Below, piece after piece: positions 42-15,885 of a DNA stretch of 42,193 bases. Numbering within the stretch: position 1 is the stretch's first letter; each line of letters starts with the position of its first letter. This DNA is from Actinomycetota bacterium (GTDB lineage Bacteria > Actinomycetota > Geothermincolia > Fen-727 > Anoxymicrobiaceae): assembly GCA_016927325.1 (NCBI GenBank), contig JAFGMY010000085.1, positions 1 to 42,193 of the forward strand, read 5' to 3'. Made by a program: the position numbers and the translations under genes. The notes below the pieces were generated by a model that was not told the origin of the DNA, ran no database searches, and was given only the letters and a program-made list of their open reading frames with translations.

Positions 42-92
42 AAGTTAGACTGGTGCCAGTCTAAAGGCTGGGACACCGGGGTTAAACACCAT
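42..92 (-). repeat. Dispersed hairpin repeat, copy 1
   Basis: Read on the minus strand this starts ATGGTGTTTAACCCCGGTG and continues into a hairpin (50-79): outer stem CTGGTG/CACCGG with one wobble pair, a two-base GA bulge (72-73), inner stem CCAG/CTGG and loop TCTAAAGG. It is nearly identical to the copies at 15901-16040. The TAA stop of the adjacent flavoprotein gene (82-84) lies inside the repeat. There is no T tract after the stem, so it is not a classical terminator. The recurrence is visible directly; the nature of the element is unknown. Confidence 0.8.
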
Positions 93-1605
93 AGTGGGCC
101 GGGTCGGCCATTATGAGATCAGAGACACGAAGCGCTCCCGCCGCGGCAAGCTCGGTACCTATTCCCCGGCCGCCTACGTCTCCGCCTACCAGGTACAGGT
201 TTTTAATTGGCGTTTTTATCTGCGGCTTGTGTTCGCCTGTCTGGCCTACGATCTGTCCGATCCCGATACTGTCACCGGTAGGCTTTCCAGTCATGTGCGA
301 GTAGTAATGCGAGTTGGTCTGGACGGTCCAGTCGATATGGTCCTTGACCCTGGGGAAGTAGCTGAAAAGTTTCTGCTCGCCTTTTTCGAGAATCCGGTTG
401 CAGTGGTCCGCGGTGCTCTTGTCGCCGCTCCTCGGTCCGGGCATGCCCATTATGATAAGCTGCCTGCCCGGTTCGGCGAGGTTGTGGTCGACTTCAGTAG
501 GAATAGAAGTGAACATGTACGCATCGTCGGGAACAGTCCCGTTGTCTACATAGTCAAACATGGTTTCAGGATCCATATCCGGGACGTTGAACACACCGTT
601 GCTTCCTATGTCGGCCACCTTGCTGGAAAGCGCATATTTCCTGGTGATGTGTGAGTACGATGTCTTGAGTTCATGGGCGCGCCTGTAGTAATCGGCCGGG
701 AGGTTTTTCTCGCCTACCATTTCACTTGTCAGAAGTATGCCGGCGTTTGAAATGACCACATCCGCTGGTATCTCTTCACCGTTTTCAGTCTTGACACCGG
801 TTACCTCGCCGTTGTTGACAAGTATCTCATCTGCGGCGGTGCTGAGCCTCAGGTCTCCTCCGTCCCTCTGCATGGCTTCGATGTAAGCGACGGGGATTGC
901 GCGTGAAGCCCCTTCGGGAACACCGAAACTCGAAGCGTAAACCTGCTTCATCATGCTCCAGAGCATTTCACCGGCGCTGCAAACCGTGTAAGGGGTGGAT
1001 GTAAGGATCATCGCCGCATAAGCCACGACCTGGTGAATCATCAGGTTGTCAGTGAAGCCGAGCAGGAAATCCATGACCGTCACATCATCCAGTTCGCACA
1101 GATAAATCTCGTTAATGGAGACGAGGTTGATCATTTCCCTGATCAGGCCTGTTATCCCGCCTTCCCTTTTCATTATCCGGAAAAGTGAGTTGTTCATTAT
1201 GCTTTTGCGTCCCGAAGCCGTACCGCGGCCGCCCAGGGACTTAAGCGTTGACATGCCCGCGATATAGGCCAGCTTCATAGCCATTTCGGGATCGTAGATC
1301 GGCTGGCAGTAAGGGAGCCTGTACTTGCCTTCGATCACGAAAGTAATCTGGGTGCGCGGCGTCAGCCACCTCAAGTCGCCGCCGACAATGCTGTTTATTT
1401 CCGCCAGCGGTCCTTTCCGCCCTCTTGAAAACATATGTATACCCGAATCGACTATAAAGCCGTCTTTTTCGAATGAGTGACACCTGCCGCCGATATAGGG
1501 GTTTTTATCAAGGATCGTAACGTCGCATCCCCTGTGCTGCATCAACGCGGCGGCACCCGCCCCGCCGACACCAGTGCCGATGACTACAACTTTGAGCTTG
1601 CTCAC
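82..1605 (-). CDS. Phytoene-desaturase-like NAD(P)/FAD-dependent oxidoreductase
   Basis: This 507-residue flavoprotein belongs to the CrtI / COG1233 amine-oxidase-like superfamily, which desaturates, saturates or isomerises hydrophobic substrates using FAD. The N-terminus carries the dinucleotide-binding loop GTGVGGAGAA and then the acidic residue and GGRC of the FAD-binding motif. The C-terminus has the second FAD signature, with LYLVGGDVGGRGIG. I chose the GTG at 1605 because AAGGAGGG lies about 8 bases upstream and the FAD motif then starts at the usual distance; an ATG at 1680 would add 25 unconserved residues. It is divergent from the AOR gene and paralogous to the protein at 5049-6497. 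Its stop codon lies in a dispersed hairpin repeat. The substrate is unknown; a carotenoid role is possible but no other carotenoid genes are nearby. Confidence 0.85.
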   Translation of the reverse strand: MSKLKVVVIGTGVGGAGAAALMQHRGCDVTILDKNPYIGGRCHSFEKDGFIVDSGIHMFSRGRKGPLAEINSIVGGDLRWLTPRTQITFVIEGKYRLPYCQPIYDPEMAMKLAYIAGMSTLKSLGGRGTASGRKSIMNNSLFRIMKREGGITGLIREMINLVSINEIYLCELDDVTVMDFLLGFTDNLMIHQVVAYAAMILTSTPYTVCSAGEMLWSMMKQVYASSFGVPEGASRAIPVAYIEAMQRDGGDLRLSTAADEILVNNGEVTGVKTENGEEIPADVVISNAGILLTSEMVGEKNLPADYYRRAHELKTSYSHITRKYALSSKVADIGSNGVFNVPDMDPETMFDYVDNGTVPDDAYMFTSIPTEVDHNLAEPGRQLIIMGMPGPRSGDKSTADHCNRILEKGEQKLFSYFPRVKDHIDWTVQTNSHYYSHMTGKPTGDSIGIGQIVGQTGEHKPQIKTPIKNLYLVGGDVGGRGIGTELAAAGALRVSDLIMADPAHYGV

Positions 1606-2011
1606 ATCCACTCCCTCCTTCCGGCTCTTACGGCTTTCGCCGGAGAGTCGATAATCGGTTAAATCAACGAAAATTGTCAAAGATTAATAACAACTATATA
1701 TGATATTATTTAAACTGTGACTGATATATTATTTTATTTGCCATTGCATGAAAACAGGCAATTTCAGTCACCACCAAGGACGTCTCGTAATATACTACCT
1801 TTGTATTGCGCAGATTCCGACAGGCAGTTGATGGGTTGGAGAAGCCCTTACGCAACCGGTCAATCAATATTGATATCTTCTGTTCAAGGCAGTGTTGTAA
1901 CTTTTTTGATCGAAAGCCGGTTCCGAAAAACTGAATTGTGCTTTGACAACCCGCAATACGTTGCGTCAATTGAAAGAAACAGCTTTGTTCATGATTCCAA
2001 AGGGGGGCGAC
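1606..2011. promoter_or_regulatory. Divergent intergenic region with inverted repeats
   Basis: This 406-base gap separates two divergently transcribed genes and should contain both promoters. An inverted repeat GTGACTGA (1717-1724) / TCAGTCAC (1764-1771) encloses a second one, TTGCC (1738-1742) / GGCAA. A perfect 12-base palindrome ATCAATATTGAT lies at 1863-1874. A TTGACA-like -35 box at 1943-1948 has only a poor -10 partner. No convincing coding sequence or known riboswitch was recognised; I looked for a molybdenum/tungsten cofactor riboswitch because of the AOR gene and saw no match. Confidence 0.4.
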
Positions 2012-4078
2012 ATGAAAGGGAACTGGGGAAAGATACTGAAAGTGGACTTGACCGCAGGTTCCACGGAGGAGTTGAAGCTTGACGAGCAGCTCTACCATGA
2101 TTACCTGGGCGGCAGTGGACTGGCCGCAAAGTACTTTTTTGACCACGAAGGCTGGAAAGTTGATCCGCTCTCTCCGGAAAATCCGCTTATGATAATGCTT
2201 GGTCCGCTCTCGGGCAGCAACCTGCCGGGCACGGCCCGGCTCGAGTTCTGCGCCAGATCTCCCCTGACAGGAATATGGGGCGAGGCGTGTATGGGTGGTT
2301 TCTTCGCCCCTCAGCTCCGGGCTGCCGGGTACGACGGGATAATAATTACCGGAGCATCGGAAAAACCTGTCTACCTGCATGTCACCGACGAGAAGGTTGA
2401 GATAAAAGACGCCTCACATCTATGGGGTAAAGATACTTTCGAGACCGAGAGCGGCATCAAAAAAGAACTTGGTGATAAGAGGATACAGGTCGCTTCAATC
2501 GGACAGGCAGGCGAAAACCTGGTCAAGTACGCGTGCATAATGAACAACCGCGGCTCCACGGCCGGCCGTGGCGGGCTGGGCGCCGTCATGGGTTCCAAAA
2601 AGTTGAAGGCGGTTGTGGTTCGCGGCAAGAAGAAGATGGAGTTCGCGAATGAACAAAGAGTGAAGAGTATCGCAAAAGATATGCACGCCAAACTGAAGGT
2701 CAACCTTATAGCCGAAGGCCTTGGCGCTTACGGCTCGAATGTCGCCATGGAGTTCGGGATGTCGATTGGCGATACCCCTACCAAGAACTGGCGGATGGCA
2801 CATTGGCCCAACGGACCGGAGAACCTGGGTGGGGTGAGCGTCGCTGAAAGGATACTGACTGATCATCATGGCTGCCATGGGTGTCCGGTTGGATGCAAGA
2901 GAATCGTTGAGGTTAAATCCGGCCCTTACAAGGTGGAGGAAGGCCCCGGGGCCGAATATGAAGGGGCCGCGGCTCTCGGAACACTTTTAATGATCGACAG
3001 TCTTGAAGCCAATACCAAGGCAAACGATATGTGCAACCGGTACGGGATGGATGTAATTTCAGCTGGAGGAACTATCGCGTATGCGATTGAGGCTTATGAA
3101 AAGGGCTTGATTACCAGGGAGGACACCGGGGGCATCGCTCTGGAATGGGGCAATGCTGATTCTGTGCTCGAGATGCTCGACAGAATAGCGGGAAGAGAGG
3201 GCTTCGGCGATCTCCTGGCTGAAGGAAGCAGGGCCGCCTCGCGGAAACTCGGCGGTGAAGAGTTCGCCATTCAGGTGAAAGGCATGGAGTGCCCGATGCA
3301 CGATCCGAGGGCACTGTGGTCGATGGCGCTGACATATGCGACCAGCATCAGGGGGGCCTGTCACTGCGCGGATTCCAACCTTTATACCGAGTGGGGCCTG
3401 GGAAGTCATAAGGACCTGGGGGTTCCGCAGTCGATTCCGTTAAGGGCAAAAGGAAAAGCGGCCTCGACGATCGCTTCGCAGAAGAAGGGCAATATCGCGA
3501 ATTCGGCGGTCATCTGTGAGTACGTGGAGGTTATGTCGGGAGGCCTGTTAATGATAATGCAGGCTACGAACGCGGTGACCGGTTTGAATTACAGCCTGAA
3601 GGAACTGGCGGAGGTCGCCGACAGGATGTGGTACCTGAAAAGGTCGATTGGAAATCTCTGTGGGGCTACACGTGAGGACGACAAGCTGCCCAGGAGAATA
3701 GTCGAGCCCCATCAGGAAGGACAGACGTCTATCCTGGCTCCGATGATCTGGATTGGAATGAAGATGATGGAACCGCTTGAAGCTCTCATAAGCGACAACA
3801 TGGTTGATAATGTAATGAAGATGGCCAACAAATATGTATTCCCACGGTTGGGTCAGATGCTCGACTTGATGAAGTTTACGCTGCCTTGGTACTGGATCAG
3901 GCGCAGGAACCTTGTTAAAGGCAACACGAAAGCAATCAGCCGCACCGCCGTTCCCGTCGATGCGATGCTGAAGGATTTTTATGAATTGAGAGACATAGAC
4001 GAGCAGGGCCGGCCGACCAGGCGTAAGCTGGAGTCCCTGGGTCTAAAGGACGTTGCCGATGTACTGCATGGCGGTTGA
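2012..4078 (+). CDS. Tungsten-type aldehyde:ferredoxin oxidoreductase (AOR family)
   Basis: AOR-family enzymes use a tungsto-bispterin cofactor and one [4Fe-4S] cluster to oxidise aldehydes to carboxylates with ferredoxin; BamB of class II benzoyl-CoA reductase is a relative. The protein starts MKGNWGKILKVDLTAG as the family does. It has the pterin-binding stretch around PGTARLEFCARSPLTG and the cluster cysteines C288, C291, C295 (CHGCPVGC) and C502 (VICEYV). At 688 residues it is longer than the usual 600-620; the extra C-terminus (from about residue 580) is methionine-rich. The ATG at 2012 has AGGGGGG upstream; an earlier in-frame ATG at 1943 lacks support. A MoaD-like gene follows. The substrate cannot be assigned. 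Confidence 0.93.
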   Translation: MKGNWGKILKVDLTAGSTEELKLDEQLYHDYLGGSGLAAKYFFDHEGWKVDPLSPENPLMIMLGPLSGSNLPGTARLEFCARSPLTGIWGEACMGGFFAPQLRAAGYDGIIITGASEKPVYLHVTDEKVEIKDASHLWGKDTFETESGIKKELGDKRIQVASIGQAGENLVKYACIMNNRGSTAGRGGLGAVMGSKKLKAVVVRGKKKMEFANEQRVKSIAKDMHAKLKVNLIAEGLGAYGSNVAMEFGMSIGDTPTKNWRMAHWPNGPENLGGVSVAERILTDHHGCHGCPVGCKRIVEVKSGPYKVEEGPGAEYEGAAALGTLLMIDSLEANTKANDMCNRYGMDVISAGGTIAYAIEAYEKGLITREDTGGIALEWGNADSVLEMLDRIAGREGFGDLLAEGSRAASRKLGGEEFAIQVKGMECPMHDPRALWSMALTYATSIRGACHCADSNLYTEWGLGSHKDLGVPQSIPLRAKGKAASTIASQKKGNIANSAVICEYVEVMSGGLLMIMQATNAVTGLNYSLKELAEVADRMWYLKRSIGNLCGATREDDKLPRRIVEPHQEGQTSILAPMIWIGMKMMEPLEALISDNMVDNVMKMANKYVFPRLGQMLDLMKFTLPWYWIRRRNLVKGNTKAISRTAVPVDAMLKDFYELRDIDEQGRPTRRKLESLGLKDVADVLHGG

Positions 4079-4163
4079 AGCCCGATAGGAATCAGCTGTA
4101 GTTACCGCCTGCAACTCGTGGATGAAGCGGCCGGCGACAGGTGAAGACAGGGTGTGGTCAGAT

Positions 4164-4412
4164 ATGGCGACTGTAAAGTTACATACCCTCCTCGTGAAGC
4201 AAACAGGAATAAGGGACTATCGGAGTTCAGCCGGTACTGTATCTGAGTTGCTGGATGAGCTCAAAGAGAAGCACGGCGATTCCATTGAAAGGTACCTGAA
4301 AAACTGTATCGTCATCGTAGACGGCAGAAAGTACGAGGGCGAAAAGGGCATGAGGAAGAAGATCAAACCCGGGAGCGAAGTGTCGATATTCCCCCGCGTA
4401 GCCGGGGGGTAG
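4164..4412 (+). CDS. MoaD/ThiS-family sulfur-carrier-like protein
   Basis: This 82-residue beta-grasp protein ends in the Gly-Gly (RVAGG) that MoaD and ThiS proteins need for adenylylation and thiocarboxylation. The SIFPRVAGG ending is the canonical MoaD terminus. MoaD supplies sulfur for the dithiolene of molybdopterin, the cofactor precursor of the AOR encoded 85 bases upstream, and MoaD-like genes commonly sit next to AOR genes. No MoaE or MoeB homologue is present in the window. I chose the ATG at 4164 because the protein then begins at the first beta strand (MATVKLHTLL); an ATG at 4122 would add 14 residues. The ribosome binding site is weak in both cases, so the start is uncertain. Confidence 0.85.
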   Translation: MATVKLHTLLVKQTGIRDYRSSAGTVSELLDELKEKHGDSIERYLKNCIVIVDGRKYEGEKGMRKKIKPGSEVSIFPRVAGG

Positions 4413-5048
4413 TCGAAGTCCTGCGCGCCGCTTCCGCTGCGCGTCAACGCGGTTCGTTGGAGTAAGACGAAGCGGCTTGCCTCCGTATTTCCGCTACCCT
4501 CATGCTTTCTGCTCCGCGTCGGATATTGGTGAAATACCGATTGACAGTGAATAACACCACTGATAGTCTTCGGTGTGCGGATAATCGGCGATTCATTAAC
4601 AAAACAAGGCCTGGAGTCCGAATTGGGGATTTCGGTTATCAACGGGTTGATCATAAGACGGTTCTGTTTCTATCCTGTCCAGATCTTCTTTTCCGGATTT
4701 ACATGAGAAATCAAGAAAACGATTCTCTCACTTCTTTATTTTTTTCTCCTGCGGAACCTGACAAGCGGCTTGCTGGATAACAAGCCATGGCCGCGGAGGA
4801 TACCGTGTAAGAAGAGAATCCCGCTATCGGGCCTGCGGTACGTTTTAAGGAGGGTGAAAGTCTGAAATTTACAGGCTTTCGCAGCGAGAATCAGGAAGTT
4901 GATGAAAAAGAATGATATCGGGTATGGAGGATGCCGGCGGGATCACTGAGTAACAGCGGTTCAGTATTCAGATTTAATGGAATGTGGTCGTGCCGGCCCG
5001 AGACAGGGGGGGGCGCATGATACGTCCTTTCAGGTGGGAGGTAATTAC
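4413..5048. other. Long intergenic region without a convincing gene
   Basis: These 636 bases separate the MoaD-like gene from the second flavoprotein. A 92-codon open frame at 4502-4780 has no ribosome binding site and no recognisable domain. Two hairpins stand out: GGCTTG/CAAGCC at 4767-4786 (8-base loop), and a 9-bp stem at 4856-4880 (GAAAGTCTG / CAGGCTTTC with one wobble and loop AAATTTA). The second follows an AAGGAGGG that has no usable start codon at the right distance. Neither has a T tract on the plus strand. Confidence 0.4.
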
Positions 5049-6497
5049 ATGGATTATGACGCAATTATTATCGGCTCGGGGTGTGGTGGTTCCGCTGCGG
5101 GAGCGGCGCTTGCGGGCTCGGGGTTTAAGGTGCTGGTGCTCGAAAGGATGGAACGGGTAGGTGGCCGGTGCACTACCATGGAGAAAGAGGGCTTCAAGGT
5201 CGACATAGGAAGCCATATAGTTATGCGCAGCGAATACGGCCCTTTTGAGGAAGCCCTCAAGCGGGTCGACATGGGAGGCAAGGTCAAGTTCCATCATATC
5301 CAGAAGCAAATGATACAGTATCAGGATATGAAGTTCGTGATGAACGTGCCGAAGATGATGAAGCTGTTCCAGGATCTTATGCCGACCGACATGCTGAAGA
5401 TGGCCGGGCAGATGCTGCCTATGATGACAGGGTTCATGAAGACACTCTCAGATCAGTTCAACTACATCTCCACAAAGGAGTTCGTGGAGAGGTACACCGA
5501 TAGCCTTGCGGTACGCGATCTGGTCAACCATATGGGATTTATCTGCACCTGGACCCCGTACTGGGAGACGTCGACGGGGGAGATGATAAACATAATGCTG
5601 GAGGCGATGGGGGATATGATGAGGGCTATGGGTGACGGAGTGATGTGTATGGGGTACCCAATAGGCGGATTGATCTCCTATCCCGCCGCACTGTGCGAAG
5701 GCATCAGGAACAAGGGCGGTGAGGTCTTGACCGATGCTGATGTAAAGCGTGTGATCGTTGAAGATGGAAAGGTCAAAGGCGTGGAGATGGCTGATGGCAC
5801 TGTGCACAAATCCAGTATCGTGGTTAGCAACGCCGGCATCAAGGAGACAGTGCTGGAGCTCGTGGGAAGAGAGCATTTCGATGCGGAGTACGCTGATGGA
5901 ATCGAAGCTTTGAGGCCTTCCTGGGCAGTGTACTGCCTGAGGCTCGCCCTGGACCGGAAGGTAATGGATATCGACGGGGCTTTTACAGTTCCGGACCCTG
6001 ACGTCGAGAAGTTCGACCGCATGGTATGGGAAGAGCACGAGGTCCCCGAAGACATTTTGCCGCCGCTCATGATAACGTCCCCATCCAATATGGACCCGTC
6101 GCTCGCCCCGGAAGGCAAGCAACTGGTGGTTATTATCGGGGGGTGCTCTTATGAACCCGCGGAGAACTGGCCCAGGTGGGAGGCGCGTGCGCTCGAGTCG
6201 GCGAACAGTACCTTCCCCGGCCTGAAAGACCACATCATATGGAAGGATTTTCTGACTCCGGCGACCTACGGCGCGCTGGGCGAGTGGGGTGCGCCCCTGA
6301 TCGGGATAGGGCAGACATATGATCAGGTGGGAGAAAAGAGGCCTTCCTCCAAGTCGCCGGTTGACGGCCTCTTTTATGCGGGCTGTGAAGCAGGCAGAGG
6401 TGTGTCGGGAATCGGCATGGAACTCGGGACGCTAAGTGGAATCAAGTGTGCCGACTACATCGTCCAGAATGTGAAAGTAGGGTCGATGACGGCTTGA
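5049..6497 (+). CDS. Phytoene-desaturase-like NAD(P)/FAD-dependent oxidoreductase (second copy)
   Basis: This 482-residue protein is a paralogue of the flavoprotein at 82-1605, in the CrtI / COG1233 family. The N-terminal FAD loop is GSGCGGSAAG, followed by the acidic strand end and VGGRC; the C-terminal FAD signature includes LFYAGCEAGRGVSGIG. Between them, about residues 98-135, is a methionine-rich stretch (MMKLFQDLMPTDMLKMAGQM), a plausible hydrophobic docking or substrate segment. The ATG at 5049 is preceded by GGGAGGT and places the FAD loop near the N-terminus; 24 upstream in-frame codons look non-coding. It lies 76 bases before the methionine-rich protein and probably shares its transcript. 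The substrate is unknown; FAD binding is well supported. Confidence 0.88.
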   Translation: MDYDAIIIGSGCGGSAAGAALAGSGFKVLVLERMERVGGRCTTMEKEGFKVDIGSHIVMRSEYGPFEEALKRVDMGGKVKFHHIQKQMIQYQDMKFVMNVPKMMKLFQDLMPTDMLKMAGQMLPMMTGFMKTLSDQFNYISTKEFVERYTDSLAVRDLVNHMGFICTWTPYWETSTGEMINIMLEAMGDMMRAMGDGVMCMGYPIGGLISYPAALCEGIRNKGGEVLTDADVKRVIVEDGKVKGVEMADGTVHKSSIVVSNAGIKETVLELVGREHFDAEYADGIEALRPSWAVYCLRLALDRKVMDIDGAFTVPDPDVEKFDRMVWEEHEVPEDILPPLMITSPSNMDPSLAPEGKQLVVIIGGCSYEPAENWPRWEARALESANSTFPGLKDHIIWKDFLTPATYGALGEWGAPLIGIGQTYDQVGEKRPSSKSPVDGLFYAGCEAGRGVSGIGMELGTLSGIKCADYIVQNVKVGSMTA

Positions 6498-6573
6498 ACT
6501 GTTTACAGATTCCGGGAGATCAGGAAAAGAGCTTTCAGGAGAGACTGGAAGACTATTAGTCAGGAGGTCGTCT

Positions 6574-7164
6574 ATGGCATTTCAAGACATGCCGCATTTG
6601 CCTGCGGAGTACATGCCCCGGCTGGAAAAGCTGGCGGAAAAGGCGAAACGTGGAGAACTCGAGTTGGGGAGCGTCATGGGCGCAATGATGCCCCCGATGA
6701 TAGCGCATGTGATGCCGGTACTTATGAGAACGGGTGGAGAGCAGATAGCCGAAATGATACCCCGGATGATGTCCGCCCTTCCATCAATGCTTCCGGCGGT
6801 GATGGGAAAACAAATTTTTGTCCATATAAGGGAAGTCGGTTTTTTCATTGCCAAAATCGGAATCAGACCCAAGCTGTTTGATTTCGTACCGTCCAGCCTT
6901 GAGGAAATAAAGAAAGCCGGTATTCCCGGTGTTTCTATAGATCCCGGTGCATTAACGGGAGGAATAGCCCGGATGACGGCACCGGGGTCGATGAAAGTTT
7001 ACGGTATTAACGAGCTGATTGAAATGTTCAGCGGTATTAATATCAGCAGGATGATGTACATGATGCCGGAGATGATGGGACTGATGACCAAAGAGGTATT
7101 CCAGAGCATGCAGGAGCCGGTACTGGAGGCTGTTGACCAGCTGTTAACGTCAAATGGGGTGTGA
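6574..7164 (+). CDS. Methionine-rich protein of unknown function
   Basis: I do not recognise this 196-residue protein. Methionine makes up about 25 of its residues (roughly 13%), clustered in MGAMMPPMIAHVMPVLM (about 35-51), PRMMSALPSMLPAVMG and SRMMYMMPEMMGLM near the C-terminus. These segments look amphipathic or hydrophobic rather than like long transmembrane helices, and I see no signal peptide, cysteines or histidine clusters. The start is firm: CAGGAGG lies 7 bases before the ATG. The stop is only 4 bases before the next gene's start, which puts it in the operon with the FAD-oxidase/iron-sulfur trio. By position it may be a small scaffold, membrane-docking or substrate-binding partner; that is inference. 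Confidence 0.85.
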   Translation: MAFQDMPHLPAEYMPRLEKLAEKAKRGELELGSVMGAMMPPMIAHVMPVLMRTGGEQIAEMIPRMMSALPSMLPAVMGKQIFVHIREVGFFIAKIGIRPKLFDFVPSSLEEIKKAGIPGVSIDPGALTGGIARMTAPGSMKVYGINELIEMFSGINISRMMYMMPEMMGLMTKEVFQSMQEPVLEAVDQLLTSNGV

Positions 7165-7168
7165 TGAT

Positions 7169-8650
7169 ATGGAAGAAAAAGCGACTGCTCTATTGGATAA
7201 AACCGTACTGGAAGATGTGGCAGGCAAAGAAAATGTAGTAACCGATCCCGATTTGCTGGAGGAGTACTCCAGGGACAGTTCTTTTGCTGCCCCCAGAGTA
7301 CCGGTATCTGTGATCCGTCCCGGGTCGACCGGGGATATAGAGAAGATCATGAAGGCAATCCGGAAAAGCGGGGTAAAGGTGATCCCGGTCAGCTCGGGGC
7401 CGCCGCATTTCCGTGGGGACACGGTACCTTCGGTGGACAACGCCGCGATACTGGATCTTTCCGGCCTTGACGAGATCGAATGGATCAACAGGCGTAACAG
7501 GGTTGCGTGTGTCTACCCCGGGGTAACCTATGCCCAACTCGAGGCCGAGCTCGAGCGCGAGGGACTCCGGTGCATGATGCCTCTCCTTCCCCGGACCACG
7601 AAATCGGTTGTGGCCGCCTGCATGGAGCGCGAGCCGTTCACCGTTCCAAAATACTCGTGGGACCTCGGTGACCCTGTCGCCTCTTCGGAGCTCACCTTCG
7701 GTAACGGTGATACACTCCGTACCGGCGGCGGTGCCGGGCCGGGCACTCTGGAACAGCAGAGAGCGGCGCTCGGTGCCCATAAGCTTCCCTTCGGGCCGCT
7801 GCTGATCGACCCCAGGAAGATCAGCCAGGGGTCCCAAGGCTCAATCTCTATCTGCAGCTGGCTGGCAATTCGCTGCGAGCTGCTTCCCGAAAAGGAGGCG
7901 CTGTATTTCACCGGTGCGGAAAAGCTCGAGGATCTTGTCGAACTTCTGTACCGTGAGCTCTACCTGAAGCTGGTTGACGAGCAGTACATCCTTAACAGCC
8001 TGGCGTTCGCATCGCTCCTTGAGACCGACGCAAAGGCGATTGACCAGCTCCGCTCAAAGCTTCCGAACTGGATCCTGGTAACCAGTGTAGGCGGCTACGG
8101 CAAGATGGCGGGTGAGCAGTTCGACTGGAAGGACGCAGACCTTAAAGACGAGGCGGGAAGGCTCGGGGTAAAGCTCGAGACCGGGATCGGCGGGATAACC
8201 GCGGACGACTACATGGAGAAGGTGGTCAGAAAGAGCGCGGACCCCTGGTGGAAGATCCGCTACCGGGGCGACGTGCGGGAGTTGATGTTCATGACTTCCG
8301 CAACCAAGACCCCGGAGTTCACCGACAAGGTCATGAGCATGGCCCTGAAGCAGAAGTTTGACACGCAGGCAATCGGTGTCTACATTCAGATGCTCCAGCA
8401 GGGCAAGTCCTGCCAGGTCAGCTTTGATTTCCAGGCGGACGCCGATACACTGTCCGGCTTTCAGAAGACGTACACCAATATAGCTGCGGCGCTCTTCAGC
8501 GAAGGCGCTTTCTACTCACGGCCTTACGGGCCGCTTGCGGACATCGTCTACTCACATGGAGACTACCAGTCATTTGTTAAATACGCCCGGGGCCTGAAGG
8601 AGATATTCGATCCTGAGGGAGTCTTGAACCCAGGAAAGCTCTGCTTTTGA
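7169..8650 (+). CDS. FAD-linked oxidase (GlcD-like, PCMH-type FAD domain)
   Basis: This 493-residue protein resembles the FAD subunits of glycolate and D-lactate dehydrogenases. The N-terminal half has the PCMH FAD-binding architecture (PVSVIRPGSTGDIEKIMKAIRKSGVKVIPVSSG, then a long GG-rich loop with RTGGGAGPG), and the C-terminus ends with the typical FDPEGVLNPGKLCF, where the Asn-Pro-Gly-Lys closes the FAD site. The ATG at 7169 has GGGGTG about 8 bases upstream; an ATG at 7154 would overlap the preceding gene. The next gene, 24 bases on, encodes an iron-sulfur protein like GlcF, and a second FAD oxidase follows, giving a GlcD-GlcF-GlcE-like set. It probably oxidises a hydroxy-acid or alcohol; the specific substrate is unknown. 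Confidence 0.88.
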   Translation: MEEKATALLDKTVLEDVAGKENVVTDPDLLEEYSRDSSFAAPRVPVSVIRPGSTGDIEKIMKAIRKSGVKVIPVSSGPPHFRGDTVPSVDNAAILDLSGLDEIEWINRRNRVACVYPGVTYAQLEAELEREGLRCMMPLLPRTTKSVVAACMEREPFTVPKYSWDLGDPVASSELTFGNGDTLRTGGGAGPGTLEQQRAALGAHKLPFGPLLIDPRKISQGSQGSISICSWLAIRCELLPEKEALYFTGAEKLEDLVELLYRELYLKLVDEQYILNSLAFASLLETDAKAIDQLRSKLPNWILVTSVGGYGKMAGEQFDWKDADLKDEAGRLGVKLETGIGGITADDYMEKVVRKSADPWWKIRYRGDVRELMFMTSATKTPEFTDKVMSMALKQKFDTQAIGVYIQMLQQGKSCQVSFDFQADADTLSGFQKTYTNIAAALFSEGAFYSRPYGPLADIVYSHGDYQSFVKYARGLKEIFDPEGVLNPGKLCF

Positions 8651-8674
8651 TAAAAAAGGGAAGGGGATGTGAAA

Positions 8675-9967
8675 ATGGCTTTAAAGGACTATGAGTATGA
8701 GACATCACACTGCATAAGGTGTTCCTGGTGCAAGTTCATGCCGTTCCAGCAGATCAAGAGCAAGCGCTTCTCGTATCTGTGCCCTTCGATATCTTATCTG
8801 AACTTCCACACCTACTCCGCCGCGGGAAGGATGCATCTTGCCCTGGCTCTTATTCAAGGTCGGATGACCGAGTACTCCGATTCGCTGAAGCAGGCTGTAT
8901 TCGAGTGCAATATGTGCGGGGCCTGCCAGGTGACATGCAGAACCTGGAACTACAATCTCAATCCCGGAGAGGTGCTTCAGGAACTGCGCGGACACATGGT
9001 CGAGCAGGGGCAGCTGATCCCGGAGCACATGGCGGCGATTGACGGTCTTAAAAGGGAAGACAACGTGTTCGGGGAGCCCAAGGCTGACCGCGGTAAGTGG
9101 GCTGAGGGGCTCGACTTTTTAAAGGACGCCAACACGGAGAAGGCCGATGTTCTCTTTCATGTCGGATGCAGAACGTCCTACGATGAGGAACTGTGGCCGA
9201 TCGCGAGGACATGGGCGAAGGTTTTAAATGGCGCTGGTGTTGATCTGGCGATCGCCGGACAGAACGAAGCCTGCTGCGGCGGAAGGCCCTACGAGATGGG
9301 ATACAGGGGAGAGATAGAGAAGTACGCCGAGGATATTGCCGGCAGGGTTAAGGCGTGCGGCGCTTCAAAGATAGTGACCCTCTGCGGTGACGGGTATGGA
9401 ACCTTCAAGAGCATCTACCCGACGCTCGGGCTCGACCTGCCCTGCGAGGTCCAGCACACAACCGAGCTTCTCGAGGAGCTGATAAATAACGGCAAGGTCA
9501 ACCTGAAGAACAAGGTGCCGATGAAGGTCACCTACCATGACCCCTGCCACCTGGGTAGAAAAGGCGAGCCGGGCCAGAAGTGGGAAGGGACATATGAGCG
9601 TCTTCATCCGCATATGATCGCGCCCGTACCCGAGAAGCCGATAAAGATCGGAGTCGACGGGTGTTATGATCCCCCGCGGAACGTCCTCAAGGCCATCCCG
9701 GGGATCGAGCTCGTCGAGATGGAGCGCTCACGCGAGTACTCCTGGTGTTGCGGCGCCGGCGGGGGGGCATGGGAAGCGTTCGATGATTTCGCGTCCTGGA
9801 CCGGGGGCGAAAGGATAGAGGAAGCAAAGAGTACCGGGGCGGAAGCGCTTGTCACCGCCTGTGGATGGTGTGAGCGATCGTTTATGGATTCGGTCAAGGA
9901 GAACGGAGACAAGATAAAGATCTACGACGTGATTGAGCTTGTTGATAAGGCAATGGGAGGTAGCTGA
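8675..9967 (+). CDS. HdrD/GlcF-type iron-sulfur electron-transfer protein
   Basis: This 430-residue protein has two N-terminal [4Fe-4S] sites and two CCG domains, the layout of GlcF, LutA, GlpC and HdrD. Cluster cysteines are C13, C16, C19 and C36 (CIRCSWC...LCP) and C78, C81, C84 and C88 (CNMCGACQVTC). The CCG motifs are EACCGGRPYE and YSWCCGAGGG, each preceded by its partner cysteine region (HVGCRTSYDE, YHDPCHLGR). It is expected to pass electrons from the flanking flavoproteins to quinone, ferredoxin or a heterodisulfide-type acceptor. I chose the ATG at 8675 because AAGGGG is 8 bases upstream; a GTG at 8669 is too close. The stop is one base before the next start, so translation is probably coupled. 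Confidence 0.92.
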   Translation: MALKDYEYETSHCIRCSWCKFMPFQQIKSKRFSYLCPSISYLNFHTYSAAGRMHLALALIQGRMTEYSDSLKQAVFECNMCGACQVTCRTWNYNLNPGEVLQELRGHMVEQGQLIPEHMAAIDGLKREDNVFGEPKADRGKWAEGLDFLKDANTEKADVLFHVGCRTSYDEELWPIARTWAKVLNGAGVDLAIAGQNEACCGGRPYEMGYRGEIEKYAEDIAGRVKACGASKIVTLCGDGYGTFKSIYPTLGLDLPCEVQHTTELLEELINNGKVNLKNKVPMKVTYHDPCHLGRKGEPGQKWEGTYERLHPHMIAPVPEKPIKIGVDGCYDPPRNVLKAIPGIELVEMERSREYSWCCGAGGGAWEAFDDFASWTGGERIEEAKSTGAEALVTACGWCERSFMDSVKENGDKIKIYDVIELVDKAMGGS

Positions 9968-9968
9968 T

Positions 9969-11582
9969 ATGGCGATAGGTAATGAAGCCTTGCGTGAGTT
10001 TCAAGTAGCGTTGGGGGAGAACAACGTCTCCGCGGACCCGGTTGTGATAGAGAGCTACTCGTACATGAACAGCATGTTCTCAGTGATGATCGGCAACTGG
10101 TGGCTCAGGCCGGTCGCGGTCGCGCTTCCCTCGACCACGGAAGAGTGCCGGAAGATCATCGATATCTGCAAAAAGCACAAACTCAAGTTCAAGCCCCACG
10201 GCGGGGCCTGGTTTATTTCAGCGCTGGCCACCAGTGAAGACACCGTTATCCTGGACATGAGGCGCATGAACAAGATAAACGAGATAAACCCGACCGACGG
10301 GTACGTTGTCTGCGAGACTTACGTGCCGGGTGGAGAGATGCAGGCGGAGGTGATGAAGCACGGCCTCAACTGTCACCTGTGCGGTGCAGGCCCGAACCTG
10401 ATGCAGCTTGTTACCGCGACCAGTATGCAGGGGTCGGGAGGGGAAGCCCAGTCGATGTCATTCCAGGAGAGGAACCTTCTCGGTGCCGAGCTTGTCACCG
10501 CTAACGGGGACATACTGTACTTCGGCTCCCCGGGGACACCGAACGCGGGCTGGTTCTGCGGGGACGGCCCGGGACCGTCGCTTAAGGGGATGATGAGAGG
10601 CGCCATGGGGAATATGGGGGCACAGGGTGTGTATACCAGGTGCGCGCTGAAGCTTTATCCATGGTACTCGGAGCCGTACGATTGCCACGGCAGCCCTCCT
10701 TTTTACGAAAGCGAACGGCCTTCCAACTACAACCTCAGGGTTGTCTGGTGGGACAACGCCGATATCGAAGCGGAAGCCCTCTACCAGCTTTCCGAGGCGG
10801 AACTGGTGGACTTCGCCGCGAGGATCGGGTCCGGATCGTATGAGTCGAGTGCCGCGGTCTCCAACGAGGAGTATCGCGAGCTCGTCAAGAACCGGACGTT
10901 CCGCGACAAGTTTAAGCGGGGCCCGTGGACCTTCTCGATCGCGGCTGCGTCTGAGCGGGGGCTTGAATATAGAACAGCAGCTCTGGACGCTATTATAGAG
11001 GAGACCGGCGGGCACTCTTACGACCCGTTTACCGAGTTCGACCACACGGAATTTGAGCTGGTGATACAGCAGGCAATAAGGGCTGCGTACATCATGAAAG
11101 ACGCGTTCCTGCCGGCCGGAGCCTTCAGCTGCAACCCGCCCCTGACCTACGAGACGATTGACCAGATATGGAAGGTCGCAGAGGAGCCGTCACTCCGGAT
11201 CAGGCGTGAGTGGATGGAGCGGGACGCTATTCTGGAGCAGGACCTCGACAACATCTACTGCAGCATCGACGAGCACGGTCACTTCGGCCATGTAGAGACT
11301 ATCTACCAGTGCGACTTCGCCGAGCCAAAGGGCGAGCCAACAGGGATAACCATAAAGGGTATGACCGAGGGGACGAGGTTGTACCTTGGCAATGGGTACA
11401 TGTCTTTCCCCGAGGACGTAAAGAAGGCGGTCATGTACGCGCAGTATCTCGGAAAAATAAACCAGATGCTGGACAGGAACATGGTTGCTGACAGCATGAT
11501 GGCCCCCATGTTCGCGATGATGGGATCCCTTGATGAATTGGACGAGCTTGCCGATCAGAAGCAGCAGACGACTGTAAGGTAA
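9969..11582 (+). CDS. FAD-linked oxidase (vanillyl-alcohol-oxidase/GlcD superfamily)
   Basis: This 537-residue protein is the second PCMH-type flavoprotein of the trio. FAD-binding features include RPVAVALPSTTEECRKIIDI, the pyrophosphate loop KFKPHGGAW, and LVTATSMQGSGGEAQSM with the following LGAELVTANGDIL. It is distant from the GlcD-like protein at 7169-8650 and looks closer to the 4-cresol/vanillyl-alcohol oxidase branch; that placement is tentative. The C-terminal 60 residues are methionine-rich (MLDRNMVADSMMAPMFAMMG) and acidic. GGGAGGT lies 6 bases before the ATG. A GC-rich inverted repeat at 11600-11655 follows the stop and probably ends the operon. Two different oxidase subunits around one iron-sulfur subunit suggest either one complex or two dehydrogenases sharing an electron acceptor. 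Confidence 0.87.
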   Translation: MAIGNEALREFQVALGENNVSADPVVIESYSYMNSMFSVMIGNWWLRPVAVALPSTTEECRKIIDICKKHKLKFKPHGGAWFISALATSEDTVILDMRRMNKINEINPTDGYVVCETYVPGGEMQAEVMKHGLNCHLCGAGPNLMQLVTATSMQGSGGEAQSMSFQERNLLGAELVTANGDILYFGSPGTPNAGWFCGDGPGPSLKGMMRGAMGNMGAQGVYTRCALKLYPWYSEPYDCHGSPPFYESERPSNYNLRVVWWDNADIEAEALYQLSEAELVDFAARIGSGSYESSAAVSNEEYRELVKNRTFRDKFKRGPWTFSIAAASERGLEYRTAALDAIIEETGGHSYDPFTEFDHTEFELVIQQAIRAAYIMKDAFLPAGAFSCNPPLTYETIDQIWKVAEEPSLRIRREWMERDAILEQDLDNIYCSIDEHGHFGHVETIYQCDFAEPKGEPTGITIKGMTEGTRLYLGNGYMSFPEDVKKAVMYAQYLGKINQMLDRNMVADSMMAPMFAMMGSLDELDELADQKQQTTVR

Positions 11583-11675: not shown

Positions 11676-12767
11676 TCAGCGGTTATGACACTGAGGGTCC
11701 TGATGCAGCAGGTAAGATCCCGGGAGCATTCCCGTCCATCGGCGGACGAAGCCGTTTCCGGTGCGGTGCAGCGCCGGTTCCGACGCGCGCAGGACAGCTC
11801 CCTTTATGAAACCGGGTATCAGGTTAATCGTCTTTTTGATTATTGACATGGTGGAGAAACCACAAAAGACCTGGTTGAAACGGGCCTGGGCATACGCCTT
11901 GTCAAATACCGCGTCAGCCGATAATCTTCCGGTCACGAGGGCTCCCTGCATGCCAAAGAGAAGAACGGGGTCTATTGCGCCGGCGAGAGTCCCCGAGAGA
12001 ATCTTGTCGCCGTGGAAGAGTTTCCGGTTTTCCGGGCCGGTTGCGGGACATGCGCCTCCGTATATAGAGTGCCAGCGTTTGAACTCGACCCCCTCCTGGA
12101 TGCTCAATAGTCTTTGAAATCTGCTTAATTTATCTTCAGTGAGCGGTAGTTTTCTTTGAAAGATAAGTGCGAAAGAGATTCCGTTTACTGTACAGTAGAA
12201 GGCATAATCTCTAGTGAAATCGTCCATCCACAGCGATATGGTCGTTGCGCCATGATTCGCCTCGGCATGTGCGAACCGGGCATACATCGGGATGTACGGA
12301 ACTCCCATGGTCCGGTATACATCCAGCGTCAAACCGGTGGCGACTATCGTATCCGGCGGCAGGCCGGCAAACTGTGCCGGTGTTGTTACCGGTGACTTGA
12401 ACTCAAAGTTCACGCCGTGTTCGATTGCGGTGCGGTACAGGAGCATGTCGATCGAACCCTCGCGGGGCCCTCTCTCCACCATGAAAAAGTTCCACTCAGG
12501 TCTCAGCCCGAGTTCTATCCTTTTGCCCCAGCCATGAAATACGGCCCGCTCGATCGGCTTGACCGCCGGGCTGATGTCTATCCCGGTGAACCGTGTTACT
12601 GCTTCAACATCAAAGGGGCTTCCGGCCGGATCGGGCCGGAGGCGGGGAATCCAGCCGCCGATGGCATCTCCGGCTTCAAGTACCGTAACGGCACGGTCTC
12701 TTTTCGCCAGGTTTATTGCCGCTACCAGGCCTGAGATTCCGGCACCGACTATGATAACTTCCGGCAA
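11676..12767 (-). CDS. FAD-dependent oxidoreductase (NAD(P)-binding Rossmann type)
   Basis: This 363-residue protein starts PEVIIVGAGISGLVAAINLA, a textbook FAD-binding GxGxxG loop, followed by VTVLEAGDAIGGW. It belongs to the same broad flavoprotein class as the two COG1233 proteins of this island but is shorter. The C-terminal FAD signature is less clear (GTLAGAIDPVLLFGMQGALVTG). The start is TTG at 12767 with GGAGG 7 bases upstream on the minus strand. It is convergent with the upstream operon and divergent from the C39 peptidase gene. FAD binding is well supported; the reaction is unknown. Alternatives are a monooxygenase-like or geranylgeranyl-reductase-like enzyme. Confidence 0.8.
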   Translation of the reverse strand: MPEVIIVGAGISGLVAAINLAKRDRAVTVLEAGDAIGGWIPRLRPDPAGSPFDVEAVTRFTGIDISPAVKPIERAVFHGWGKRIELGLRPEWNFFMVERGPREGSIDMLLYRTAIEHGVNFEFKSPVTTPAQFAGLPPDTIVATGLTLDVYRTMGVPYIPMYARFAHAEANHGATTISLWMDDFTRDYAFYCTVNGISFALIFQRKLPLTEDKLSRFQRLLSIQEGVEFKRWHSIYGGACPATGPENRKLFHGDKILSGTLAGAIDPVLLFGMQGALVTGRLSADAVFDKAYAQARFNQVFCGFSTMSIIKKTINLIPGFIKGAVLRASEPALHRTGNGFVRRWTGMLPGSYLLHQDPQCHNR

Positions 12768-13020
12768 AGCAGGACCTCCAGCGGCATGCCTTCATTTCGG
12801 AACGGTTGCCTGATCGTAGATCGAACTGTTTTCCGTGAAAAAACGTCAATATGTATTGTCTGCTGCATGCTTATATGCGAGTACTTATGTTTGGCGGCCA
12901 ACAATATGCAATATGCCGACTATTATTACTTGCGGCGCCACCGGTAAGCAAAACAGGATAGAAACGCATTTTACAGAATAGTATCAGAGATACTTGTTTG
13001 AGAACATGGAAGGGGCTGAA

Positions 13021-15885
13021 ATGAAGAACCGACGTTTACCAACTCGAAGATCGACGCGGCTTGTCGTCGCGATTGCCGTCTTGTCTCTTGTTGTTATGAT
13101 GATACCCGCCGCAGGTTCGGCCGGTGCAGCTTGCGTGACCGAAGACGAGGCGCGCAGCACGGCTTCCAGGCTGATAGACCGCGTACTCGCCGAAACCCTG
13201 AAGAGGCCCGGTGCGCCCGGGACAGAACCGGAGTGGAAGGGGGCTTTCCCCGGCGATCCGCTTCTGGTGCATGGTATGGAAGGCGGGCCGTCGGAGTACA
13301 TCGTACCGGTTGTGAATAAGACCGGGGAAACGGTTTCGATTATCGGTGTCGGCGCAGCTGACGCCCGATGGCACTGGTACGCAGGCTACCCCCATTTAAA
13401 GTTCCCACCTGTCGACGCCGGCAAAGCTATGTCCAGGGTCGAAGGTTTTCTTGAAGATGCAGGTATTAAAGCGGAGCCGGGGGTGCCCTCGGCAACAATG
13501 GCGTCCGACAAGACCGTTTACTGGACTTTCAACATCAGTGAAGGCGGCCCGGTAAAAACTGTCTACCTGCCTGCGTTTTCTGAAGGAAAAGCGTACACAA
13601 ATCTGGAGCCGCCATGGAAAACGGAAAAGGAGTTCGACAGGGTGGATGTTCCATCGGACAAGGGTGGAACCGCCGGGGGTTTAAAATCGTCGGCCAGGGA
13701 CATTTATCCGGGGGGAGCACAGGCTGCCTACAATATCCAGGGAGTCCCTTATCACGCTCAAACCACTGACTACTGGTGCGGCCCGGCGTCGCTGGAGATG
13801 GTATTCGACTACTTCGGTCCCGACATCAGCCAGGCCGAAATTGCAAGCGTAGCCAACTCTAATTCCTCGTATGGCTGCTATAACACCGAAATCGCAAGGG
13901 CCGGACAGTTTTCGAGCCAGAGCACCTCTGTGCAGAGCCCCGGCCTTCAGGGATACACAGGAAGGGACTATGGTTATGGAGTGGCTTCGGCGTCCTGGCG
14001 GGACGGCACCGCTCTCTACGCCAGACGGTACAGTGACCTGAAGGACCTTATTTCCAGTGATATCCCGGTTATGACACTCACATGGTACGACCAGTCTCAC
14101 AGTTCCGGACATTTCAGGGTCGCCAAGGGGTACAACGATAACCTGGGAACGATCATATTTCACGATCCATGGTATTCCGGAACGCTTTCGGGGCCGGATG
14201 TCTCTTTGAATCAGGACTATTTCGTTGATAACCTGTGGAACTATTCGGACAGGTGGGCCATGATAGCCTGCCCGTTGAAAGTGATTCTCGACAAGCCTGT
14301 TTCAGTAACCGCGGGGCAGGTCTTCTCGGTTACCGCGCGGGTTTACTACATCGGACCCGAACCGCTTGACGGTCAGTATCCCTGTCATGACGACACGGTG
14401 TCCGCTACGATTCGTACTGCACTCGGCGACTACAAGCTGGTAGGCAGCCAGACAAACCAGAGGGTCTACGGAATGGAGGGCACCGGGACGTTCGGGACCG
14501 CCACATGGACGGTGCAGTCACTGAAGGTCCAGAACACCGACGATATTTCAGTTGACGCGCAGGGGCTGATCAACGGTTCGACCTCCGCTTACCCAAGCTA
14601 CCAGGACTGGATAGGAGGTTCGGGCAGTGAAGGTGAGGAGGCTTTAACCACCTCGAGAGCATGGGCACACGACTCGATCGGCGTACCCGGTCCGAGCGAT
14701 ACATGGTACCTGGCGGAAGGTTCGACAAGGGGCGGATTTGAGACATGGATTCTGGTTCAGAACCCTAACGACCAGGATGCCGAAGTTTCTTTAACTTACA
14801 TGACGGAAAAAGGAGAGGAAGCGGGGCCGTCCGTTGTAATAGGCGCAAACTCCCGTATGACATTTTTTGTGGGCGACACCGTTGCCGATACCTGGAGCGT
14901 TTCCACGAAAGTCGAGTCTGATCTGCCCGTAATAGCGGAAAGGTCGATGTATGGAAACAACCGGACCTGGGGCCACGACTCAATAGGGGTAACGGAACCG
15001 GCTGATACCTGGTACCTGGCGGAAGGCTGCACCAACGGTGGCTTCGAGACCTGGATACTGATCCAGAATCCGAACGACAGCGCCGCTGAAGTGACGCTGT
15101 CTTATATGACGGCGGACGGGGAAAGAAGAGGTCCCACGGTCGAGCTTCCGGCGAACTCAAGGCAGACTTTCTTTGCCGCCGATTCCGTGCCGGACACTTG
15201 GGATGTTTCCACCCTGGTTACTTCCGACGTGCCGGTTATTGCCGAGAGGGCTATGTACGGTGGCAGCCGGACCTGGGGCCATGACTCCGTAGGCGTTTCA
15301 GAACCCGCCGATACATGGTACCTGGCGGAAGGCTGCACCAACGGTGGCTTCGAGACCTGGATACTGATCCAGAACCCGGAAGATGTTCCTGCCGAGGTCC
15401 AGTTGACGTACATGACAACCGAAGGGCCGGTGGCCGGGCCGGGCGTGACTATCGGTCCAAACTCGAGGCAATCTTTTGATGTGGCTGAAACGGTTCCTTC
15501 GACATGGTCCGTTTCAACTGAAGTGAGTTCCGACATACCGGTCATAGCCGAGAGGGCCATGTACGGCAACAACCGCACGTGGGGCCATGATTCAAGAGGT
15601 GTCAGTCTGGCGTCCAATACATGGTACCTGGCGGAAGGGTGTACAAATACCGGGTTTGAGTCATGGGTGCTGGTTCAGAACCCGAATACGGGACCTGTTG
15701 ACGTGACGCTGACTTTTATGACACCGGGCGGCGCAATCACAGGGCCTGCCATGACCCTGCCGTCGAATACGCGTTATACATTTAATGTCGGCGATTATGT
15801 GCCGGGCGAGTGGGAGGTCTCGACACAGGTTGACGCAAGTCTTCCAGTAATAGCCGAGCGCGCGATGTACGGGGACAGTAATTAA
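13021..15885 (+). CDS. Secreted C39-family peptidase with four 102-residue C-terminal repeats
   Basis: This 954-residue protein starts with a signal peptide: positive N-terminus, hydrophobic core LVVAIAVLSLVVMM, and a likely cleavage after Ala-Gly-Ser-Ala-Gly-Ala. After a region of about 190 residues comes a papain-like C39 peptidase domain: C253 in YWCGPAS, H364 in SGHFRV and D382 in FHDPW. Residues 547-954 are four repeats with the signature TWYLAEG...NGGFETWILIQNPND. No ABC transporter domain or sortase anchor is present, so it is probably a free extracellular or wall-associated protease or adhesin. I chose the ATG at 13021 (AAGGGG 5 bases upstream); in-frame TTG 12994 and ATG 13006 are alternatives. 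The TAA stop abuts a dispersed hairpin repeat. Confidence 0.88.
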   Translation: MKNRRLPTRRSTRLVVAIAVLSLVVMMIPAAGSAGAACVTEDEARSTASRLIDRVLAETLKRPGAPGTEPEWKGAFPGDPLLVHGMEGGPSEYIVPVVNKTGETVSIIGVGAADARWHWYAGYPHLKFPPVDAGKAMSRVEGFLEDAGIKAEPGVPSATMASDKTVYWTFNISEGGPVKTVYLPAFSEGKAYTNLEPPWKTEKEFDRVDVPSDKGGTAGGLKSSARDIYPGGAQAAYNIQGVPYHAQTTDYWCGPASLEMVFDYFGPDISQAEIASVANSNSSYGCYNTEIARAGQFSSQSTSVQSPGLQGYTGRDYGYGVASASWRDGTALYARRYSDLKDLISSDIPVMTLTWYDQSHSSGHFRVAKGYNDNLGTIIFHDPWYSGTLSGPDVSLNQDYFVDNLWNYSDRWAMIACPLKVILDKPVSVTAGQVFSVTARVYYIGPEPLDGQYPCHDDTVSATIRTALGDYKLVGSQTNQRVYGMEGTGTFGTATWTVQSLKVQNTDDISVDAQGLINGSTSAYPSYQDWIGGSGSEGEEALTTSRAWAHDSIGVPGPSDTWYLAEGSTRGGFETWILVQNPNDQDAEVSLTYMTEKGEEAGPSVVIGANSRMTFFVGDTVADTWSVSTKVESDLPVIAERSMYGNNRTWGHDSIGVTEPADTWYLAEGCTNGGFETWILIQNPNDSAAEVTLSYMTADGERRGPTVELPANSRQTFFAADSVPDTWDVSTLVTSDVPVIAERAMYGGSRTWGHDSVGVSEPADTWYLAEGCTNGGFETWILIQNPEDVPAEVQLTYMTTEGPVAGPGVTIGPNSRQSFDVAETVPSTWSVSTEVSSDIPVIAERAMYGNNRTWGHDSRGVSLASNTWYLAEGCTNTGFESWVLVQNPNTGPVDVTLTFMTPGGAITGPAMTLPSNTRYTFNVGDYVPGEWEVSTQVDASLPVIAERAMYGDSN
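14659..15882 (+). repeat. Four exact 306-bp in-frame tandem repeats
   Basis: Repeat units begin at 14659, 14965, 15271 and 15577, each exactly 306 bases (102 codons) with no insertions or deletions, and the fourth ends at the last sense codon of the gene. Each begins TWGHDS (AWAHDS in the first) and contains TWYLAEG about 14 residues later. Units 2 and 3 share 59 identical bases (15010-15068 and 15316-15374), which suggests recent duplication or gene conversion; the other units are more diverged. Confidence 0.92.

Follow-up and report, generated by a model that had tools for sequence, protein, structure and literature searches.

A recurring gene association of an aldehyde:ferredoxin oxidoreductase, CrtI-like flavoproteins and a flavin/iron-sulfur trio in an Anoxymicrobiaceae genome, possibly for oxygen-independent oxidation of hydrophobic substrates

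The window analysed here is the whole 42,193-nucleotide stretch of contig JAFGMY010000085.1 (positions 1 to 42,193, forward strand) from the Actinomycetota assembly GCA_016927325.1 (Geothermincolia; Anoxymicrobiaceae), a draft genome of 2.47 Mb that is 82% complete. The genes under study, at positions 2012-11582, encode an aldehyde:ferredoxin oxidoreductase (AOR), a MoaD/ThiS-like sulfur carrier, a CrtI-like flavoprotein, a methionine-rich protein and a set of three consecutive proteins, hereafter the trio, in which a CCG-type iron-sulfur (Fe-S) protein stands between two flavin adenine dinucleotide (FAD) proteins of the vanillyl-alcohol oxidase/p-cresol methylhydroxylase (VAO/PCMH) type. One further flavoprotein gene flanks the set on either side. 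A preliminary description of this DNA had listed all of these genes, and each of them was found where it had been placed:

82..1680, minus strand: P0001 ('CrtI1'), CrtI-like (COG1233) flavoprotein on the divergent flank (PF01593)
2012..4078, plus strand: P0002, AOR (PF02730, E 1e-82; PF01314, E 7e-114)
4164..4412, plus strand: P0003, MoaD/ThiS-like sulfur carrier of the ThiS family (PF02597) with a C-terminal GG
5049..6497, plus strand: P0004 ('CrtI2'), CrtI-like (COG1233) flavoprotein (PF01593)
6574..7164, plus strand: P0005, Met-rich protein (12.8% Met) with no Pfam match even at E<=5 and no NCBIfam match
7154..8650, plus strand: P0006 (VAO1), trio subunit 1, VAO/PCMH-type FAD protein with a C-terminal FAD-oxidase_C domain (PF01565, weak PF02913)
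8669..9967, plus strand: P0007 (CCG), trio subunit 2, TfrB/Hdr-like Fe-S protein (PF02754 twice, PF13183 (Fer4_8))
9969..11582, plus strand: P0008 (VAO2), trio subunit 3, VAO/PCMH-type FAD protein without PF02913 (PF01565 only)
11676..12767, minus strand: P0009, small FAD flavoprotein on the convergent flank (PF13450, PF01266)

Between the last four genes (P0005-VAO1-CCG-VAO2) the gaps are an 11-base overlap, 18 bases and 1 base, the first of these becoming a spacing of 4 bases if VAO1 starts at the in-frame ATG at 7169; the earlier figure of 1-24 bases was roughly right. The G+C content of the stretch is 50-58%, against 53.7% in the remaining window, and its tetranucleotide correlation with the remaining window is 0.905, whereas foreign contigs gave 0.63-0.70. 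By its composition the stretch is native to the source genome, and contamination of the contig is argued against both by this composition and by the closest relatives of the AOR.

The subunits of the trio have masses of 55.0, 48.2 and 60.0 kDa for VAO1, CCG and VAO2, respectively. The two FAD subunits differ at their C-termini: PF02913 is also matched in 14/14 members of the VAO1 family (weakly in P0006 itself, E 0.008), whereas all 21 members of the VAO2 family match PF01565 alone and none of the 21 matches PF02913. The trio had been called GlcDEF-like, and its make-up agrees with that name, but both FAD subunits are nearest to VAO/PCMH proteins and not to GlcD by sequence profile. The fold comparison, which was made for VAO2 only, points the same way, since the VAO2 model matched the p-cresol methylhydroxylase structure 1dii with a Foldseek E of 4e-23, a TM of ~0.67 and ~17% identity; the FAD subunits thus carry the PF01565 domain and, in the case of VAO2, the fold that mark the VAO/PCMH superfamily. 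VAO2 has its FAD domain and overall fold in common with p-cresol methylhydroxylase and vanillyl-alcohol oxidase, but the former works with a cytochrome c partner, whereas among the annotated window genes there is no cytochrome and a CCG Fe-S protein is present instead. In the 4-phenol-oxidising VAO/PCMH enzymes a Tyr-Arg pair binds the phenolate. Such a pair is not evident in the weak C-terminal alignments of the VAO subunits, and the alignment of their C-terminal substrate domains with solved structures is too weak for an active-site reading. In the Fe-S subunit, the first CCG motif of P0007 is incomplete and ends in CGDG; across the CCG family one Cys of the N-terminal motif is lost in two relatives, while the other cysteines are invariant (alignment A1). 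From this architecture we infer that the three proteins assemble into a heterotrimeric flavin/iron-sulfur dehydrogenase.

Work published in 2026 puts forward a heterotrimeric flavoprotein as the prime candidate for the activation of benzene without oxygen (PMC13101534; PMC13416013). In a methanogenic culture on benzene no proteins were detected more than 'Magic' 24-26 of Ca. Anaerobenzenivorax ORM2a, for which a GlcDEF-like heterotrimer has been modelled (PMC13101534), and BzS1_12970/80/90, with subunits of 54.5/46.5/65.8 kDa, made up ~1/5 of the detected proteome on benzene (PMC13416013). Both have the operon order FAD oxidase, Hdr-like Fe-S protein, FAD oxidase that is seen at window positions 7154-11582, with a PF02913-type C-terminus on the first FAD subunit only, Fe-S motifs without some of the cysteines (as in P0007) and near-equal subunit sizes. 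The BzS1 trio has TetR and beta-oxidation neighbours and abundant electron-transferring flavoprotein (ETF), and relatives of the window trio likewise have TetR and ETF neighbours. The architecture of the trio is the same as that of the published heterotrimer, a likeness that was drawn from the published descriptions. Because this architecture had already been described in anaerobic benzene degraders, the trio does not count as a new type of enzyme, as the idea of a new module would have had it; the combination with AOR, CrtI-like proteins and P0005, together with the expansion in the source genome, does appear to be undescribed so far. What sets the window trio apart from 'Magic' 24-26 and BzS1 is its link to AOR, MoaD, CrtI-like proteins and P0005 and the many paralogues in one genome.

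The conservation of the trio was followed in loci of the class, 80 named contigs, 40 Desulfobacterota loci and the source genome, with simple open reading frame (ORF) picks as gene calls in the relatives; a first contig scan with P0008 gave no match, while the CCG alignment as query did. The results showed 108 complete VAO1-CCG-VAO2 trios, which stood at 19/22 CCG genes in the class (VAO1 upstream, VAO2 downstream), 58/79 in the named contigs, 26/45 in the Desulfobacterota loci and 5/10 in the source genome, many other CCG genes being cut by contig ends. The named contigs come from Chloroflexota, Spirochaetota, Bacillota (including Clostridia), Acidobacteriota, Myxococcota and others as well as from archaea (Lokiarchaeota, Thorarchaeota, Helarchaeota, Jordarchaeia and Hadesarchaea), and some named relatives of the CCG protein belong to Ca. 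Geothermincola and Ca. Solincola. ETF genes are frequent neighbours of the trio, and some lineages have AOR, acyl-CoA ligases and CrtI-like proteins there; FixC/geranylgeranyl-reductase-like flavoproteins and TetR regulators also occur next to related copies. Several loci bring most of these families together: AOR, CrtI1, a P0009-type protein and the trio in L229; two CrtI-like genes, an AMP-binding ligase, a PaaK-like ligase, AOR and VAO-CCG-VAO in L241; and, in Desulfobacterota, P0005, VAO1, CCG, VAO2, CrtI, a 142-150 amino acid protein, EtfA and EtfB in L282 and L283, and AOR, a ligase, a small protein, the trio, a further small protein, EtfB and EtfA in L316.

P0002 has the same AFOR_N and AFOR_C domains as the Pyrococcus AOR, and in the alignment with 1aor the CxxCxxxC motif, the fourth cluster cysteine, the EYE glutamate stretch and the GCH histidine are kept. 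It scores 398 bits to 1aor and 223 bits to BamB (4z3w), and is therefore AOR-type rather than a BamB of the class II benzoyl-CoA reductases. Proteins of the MoaD family help make the pterin cofactor of AOR. The MoaD gene lies directly 3' of the AOR gene in the window and in five relatives (L223-L227), in all of which the order AOR-MoaD-CrtI recurs; ORFs on the MoaD strand between MoaD and CrtI in L223 and L226 were discarded as antisense artefacts, the true gene at this place in L223 looking DHDPS-type and lying on the opposite strand. Relatives of P0002 that are 55-64% identical occur in most genomes of the class. Among the 35 top-scoring AOR matches of the class, 12 have a VAO2 gene no farther than 12 kb away, where at most 1.56 would be expected by random placement. 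None of 200,000 simulations reached 11. The p-value overstates the evidence, as genomes that are related do not count as independent and the lists behind the test were transcribed by hand; the size of the effect is unaffected by this. The relatives were checked for these genes at unrelated places, and what was found is a real, recurring gene association, as the preliminary description had supposed. A second AOR, ~43% identical to P0002, was seen within ~4 kb of SCP2-domain (lipid-carrier) matches in most class genomes, and this pairing was counted in at least 18 of them (including G015:C13, G080:C6, G102:C51 and G123:C25).

The CrtI-like proteins of the window have the NAD_binding_8 and Amino_oxidase architecture of the CrtI phytoene desaturase/carotenoid isomerase family (COG1233). 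They differ from it in that no curated CrtI model reaches its cut-off (for TIGR02734, 101 bits with P0001 and 124 bits with P0004 against 238), in having dozens of copies in the genome and in being placed with AOR and the trio. A CrtI1-type gene adjoins a P0009-type gene also in the relatives L229 and L104, and relatives of P0009 lie near trio, AOR or CrtI genes in L083, L096, L104, L110, L229 and L233. P0005, taken earlier for an orphan, turned out to have relatives, its family comprising six members in the source genome and two in Desulfobacterota, all eight next to genes of the trio or of CrtI type: immediately 5' of VAO1 in L036, L042, L282 and L283, adjacent to VAO2 and CrtI in L010 and flanking a CrtI gene on either side in L009. 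A single-sequence search found no relatives in 198 other genomes of the phylum, and a profile search of the Desulfobacterota-side class found them in 2/390 genomes. The P0005 family belongs to the VAO2 sub-clade that unites the source genome with two Desulfobacterota.

Two identities considered for P0005 were discarded. As an SCP2-like lipid carrier it had no Pfam match (PF02036), hhalign P values of 0.14-0.46 and Foldseek matches to Eis and SCP2 only at E>0.1; a comparison with the ~130 amino acid protein that precedes VAO1 in relatives was negative. The latter is a helical protein of ~115-150 amino acids with no Pfam match that takes the position of P0005 in 21 loci (L079, L083, L087, L088, L280 and others) and has no detectable relation to it. 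Another conserved protein, of 142-150 amino acids, follows VAO2 or CrtI in two phyla (L036:14441-14881, L035:13955-14392, L037:4390-4830, L039:1106-1537, L282:10517-10969 and L283:10750-11178). It showed weak profile similarity to SCP2, with hhalign P of 2.6e-4 to 0.01 against a lowest value of 0.033 among 60 column-shuffled controls (one SCP2 set), and this possible similarity is best taken as a lead.

In the source genome the families of the cluster are strongly multiplied. P0008 matched 25 places, 21 of them strongly (E<1e-15) and some of them contig-end fragments; at least 16 contain the N-terminus, so at least 16 are distinct genes. P0004 matched 38 places, fragments included. At the same thresholds, other genomes of the class gave 0-13 VAO2 and 0-9 CrtI matches; the copy numbers are approximate because the genome is fragmented. 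In a FastTree phylogeny with local support only, the 11 full-length VAO2 copies of this genome form one group (support 95) in which only G256 and G608 (Desulfobacterota) are included, with the other Geothermincolia copies apart. One of the copies in the source genome, L036, lies among two MaoC genes, an acyl-CoA dehydrogenase, an AMP-binding ligase, an SDR, a P0005-like gene, the trio and three CrtI genes. CrtC-lipocalin proteins are encoded beside trios in the source genome and in Lokiarchaeota. The many diverged copies suggest paralogous modules for different substrates. HAMP-domain membrane proteins without a recognised output domain, possible sensors, were noticed near several of the VAO2 copies of this genome (L031:3619-5562, L032:1947-3011, L036:1037-2602 and L010:15132-17186).

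We propose that the cluster encodes an oxygen-independent pathway that oxidises a hydrophobic substrate to an acid, a reading to which we give about equal chances of being right and wrong. One or both trio flavins would take a hydride from a C-H or alcohol group, yielding an alcohol or aldehyde, and the electrons would pass via the CCG protein to an acceptor, probably an ETF, to judge from the neighbours of related copies. The aldehyde would be converted to the acid by the AOR with reduction of ferredoxin, MoaD helping to make the pterin cofactor, and the CrtI-like flavoproteins, going by their family, may desaturate, saturate or isomerise the carbon skeleton. An acyl-CoA ligase of the kind encoded beside related copies would activate the acid for beta-oxidation, and P0005 would serve as an accessory protein of one sub-clade. 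Such a route from trio through AOR and ligase to beta-oxidation is suggested by the AOR, ligase, MaoC, acyl-CoA dehydrogenase and ETF neighbours of related copies, and the stepwise oxidation to an acid envisaged earlier fits the AOR and the acyl-CoA ligases. That the substrate is hydrophobic is suggested by the CrtI-like enzymes, the CrtC-lipocalin proteins beside trios and the SCP2 matches beside other AORs; it may be of terpenoid or fatty nature, and the findings speak neither for nor against benzene. Several observations weigh against the proposal. The window holds no acyl-CoA ligase or ETF genes, several VAO2 copies in the source genome stand without VAO1 and CCG, and no AOR was found beside the other fetched trio copies of this genome, many of whose contigs end nearby. 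In addition, the AORs of 55-64% identity in relatives mostly lie away from any trio, which makes AOR a frequent but not obligatory partner.

Among other explanations, the trio could be a C-H activating enzyme for inert hydrocarbons, as is suspected of its counterparts in benzene degraders, with the rest of the cluster handling the activated product. Gene order, domains and sizes match BzS1_12970/80/90 and 'Magic' 24-26, and the copy L036 shares with 'Magic' a MaoC and an AMP-binding ligase gene nearby but is without the CoA-transferase. The window trio itself has no AMP-binding ligase, MaoC or class III CoA-transferase beside it as the whole 'Magic' cluster would, and class III CoA-transferases directly beside a trio were not found in the 80 named and 40 Desulfobacterota loci. 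The published benzene proposals, moreover, are without aldehyde oxidation by an AOR, and syntenic homologues with 23-42% identity are reported from organisms unable to use benzene; we consider this explanation unlikely. A biosynthetic role, for example in isoprenoid or carotenoid tailoring or in alkyl-ether lipid synthesis, would account for the CrtI-like and geranylgeranyl-reductase-like flavoproteins beside the trio and for the weak match of both VAO1 and VAO2 to alkyldihydroxyacetonephosphate synthase. It is, in our judgement, distinctly improbable, as the 38 CrtI-like places far exceed the needs of a carotenoid pathway, no CrtI model is reached at cut-off, and a catabolic role is indicated by the AOR, acyl-CoA ligase, MaoC, acyl-CoA dehydrogenase and ETF genes nearby. 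Very little speaks for a GlcDEF-type dehydrogenase of 2-hydroxyacids such as glycolate or lactate with unrelated neighbours: like GlcDEF of E. coli, the trio joins two VAO-superfamily FAD (FAD_binding_4) subunits to one CCG Fe-S subunit and matches the GlcD and GlcF models weakly, but the scores are far below the cut-offs (36.3 and 48.1 bits against 567.9 for GlcD; 23.3 against 333 for GlcF), the FAD domains are nearer to VAO/PCMH, and the AOR, CrtI, ligase and ETF neighbours, which differ from those of GlcDEF, are conserved. That housekeeping redox genes merely lie together by chance, as the mixed strands of both flanks might suggest, is scarcely credible given that the co-location is repeated in several genera and a second phylum.

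How benzene is activated anaerobically is an open problem in which enzymes of the trio's type are the leading suspects, and their known producers are hard to grow. The spread of the trio (Actinomycetota, Chloroflexota, Desulfobacterota, Spirochaetota, Clostridia and Asgard archaea) and its neighbours offer testable hints on the function of the family, and many natural variants are at hand for expression and assay, including that of the isolate Anoxynatronum buryatiense. Expansion on this scale in a single genome of 2.5 Mb suggests a specialist for unusual hydrophobic substrates, one that breaks down oily molecules anaerobically. More speculatively, and with a rather low chance of being correct, VAO1-CCG-VAO2 could be a machinery of broad use for oxidising C-H bonds without oxygen, the suspected benzene enzyme being one of its branches; this lineage would then have multiplied the trio, together with AOR and CrtI-like proteins, as a set of tools for attacking many hydrophobic molecules (such as isoprenoids, steroids or hydrocarbons).

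Some further features were seen around the trio and in the rest of the window. In Lokiarchaeota (L175-L192) the trio is followed by a conserved 138 amino acid protein of no family and often by a lipocalin protein of the CrtC type, while its other side often carries a FixC/geranylgeranyl-reductase-like gene. L297:4620-13500 (G351) holds two complete tandem trios, with thiolase-like and ketoacyl-synthase-like genes after them. Regulators in which a MerR-type helix-turn-helix is joined to a TetR-type one lie near VAO2, trio or AOR genes at L036:56-967, L032:5449-6312 and L223:2841-3893, the fusion having been tested with Pfam in L036 and L032 and judged by eye in L223. No Moco/W riboswitch or other Rfam element was found in the window, and its promoter and terminator scans gave matches not above chance level. 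Outside the stretch the window carries housekeeping genes, for example those for exonuclease VII, PGM/PMM-type and SIS/glutaminase enzymes, alanine racemase and TsaB, and at 12994-15885 a gene for a large protein that combines a C39-type peptidase domain with DUF5719 repeats (WYLAEG motifs).

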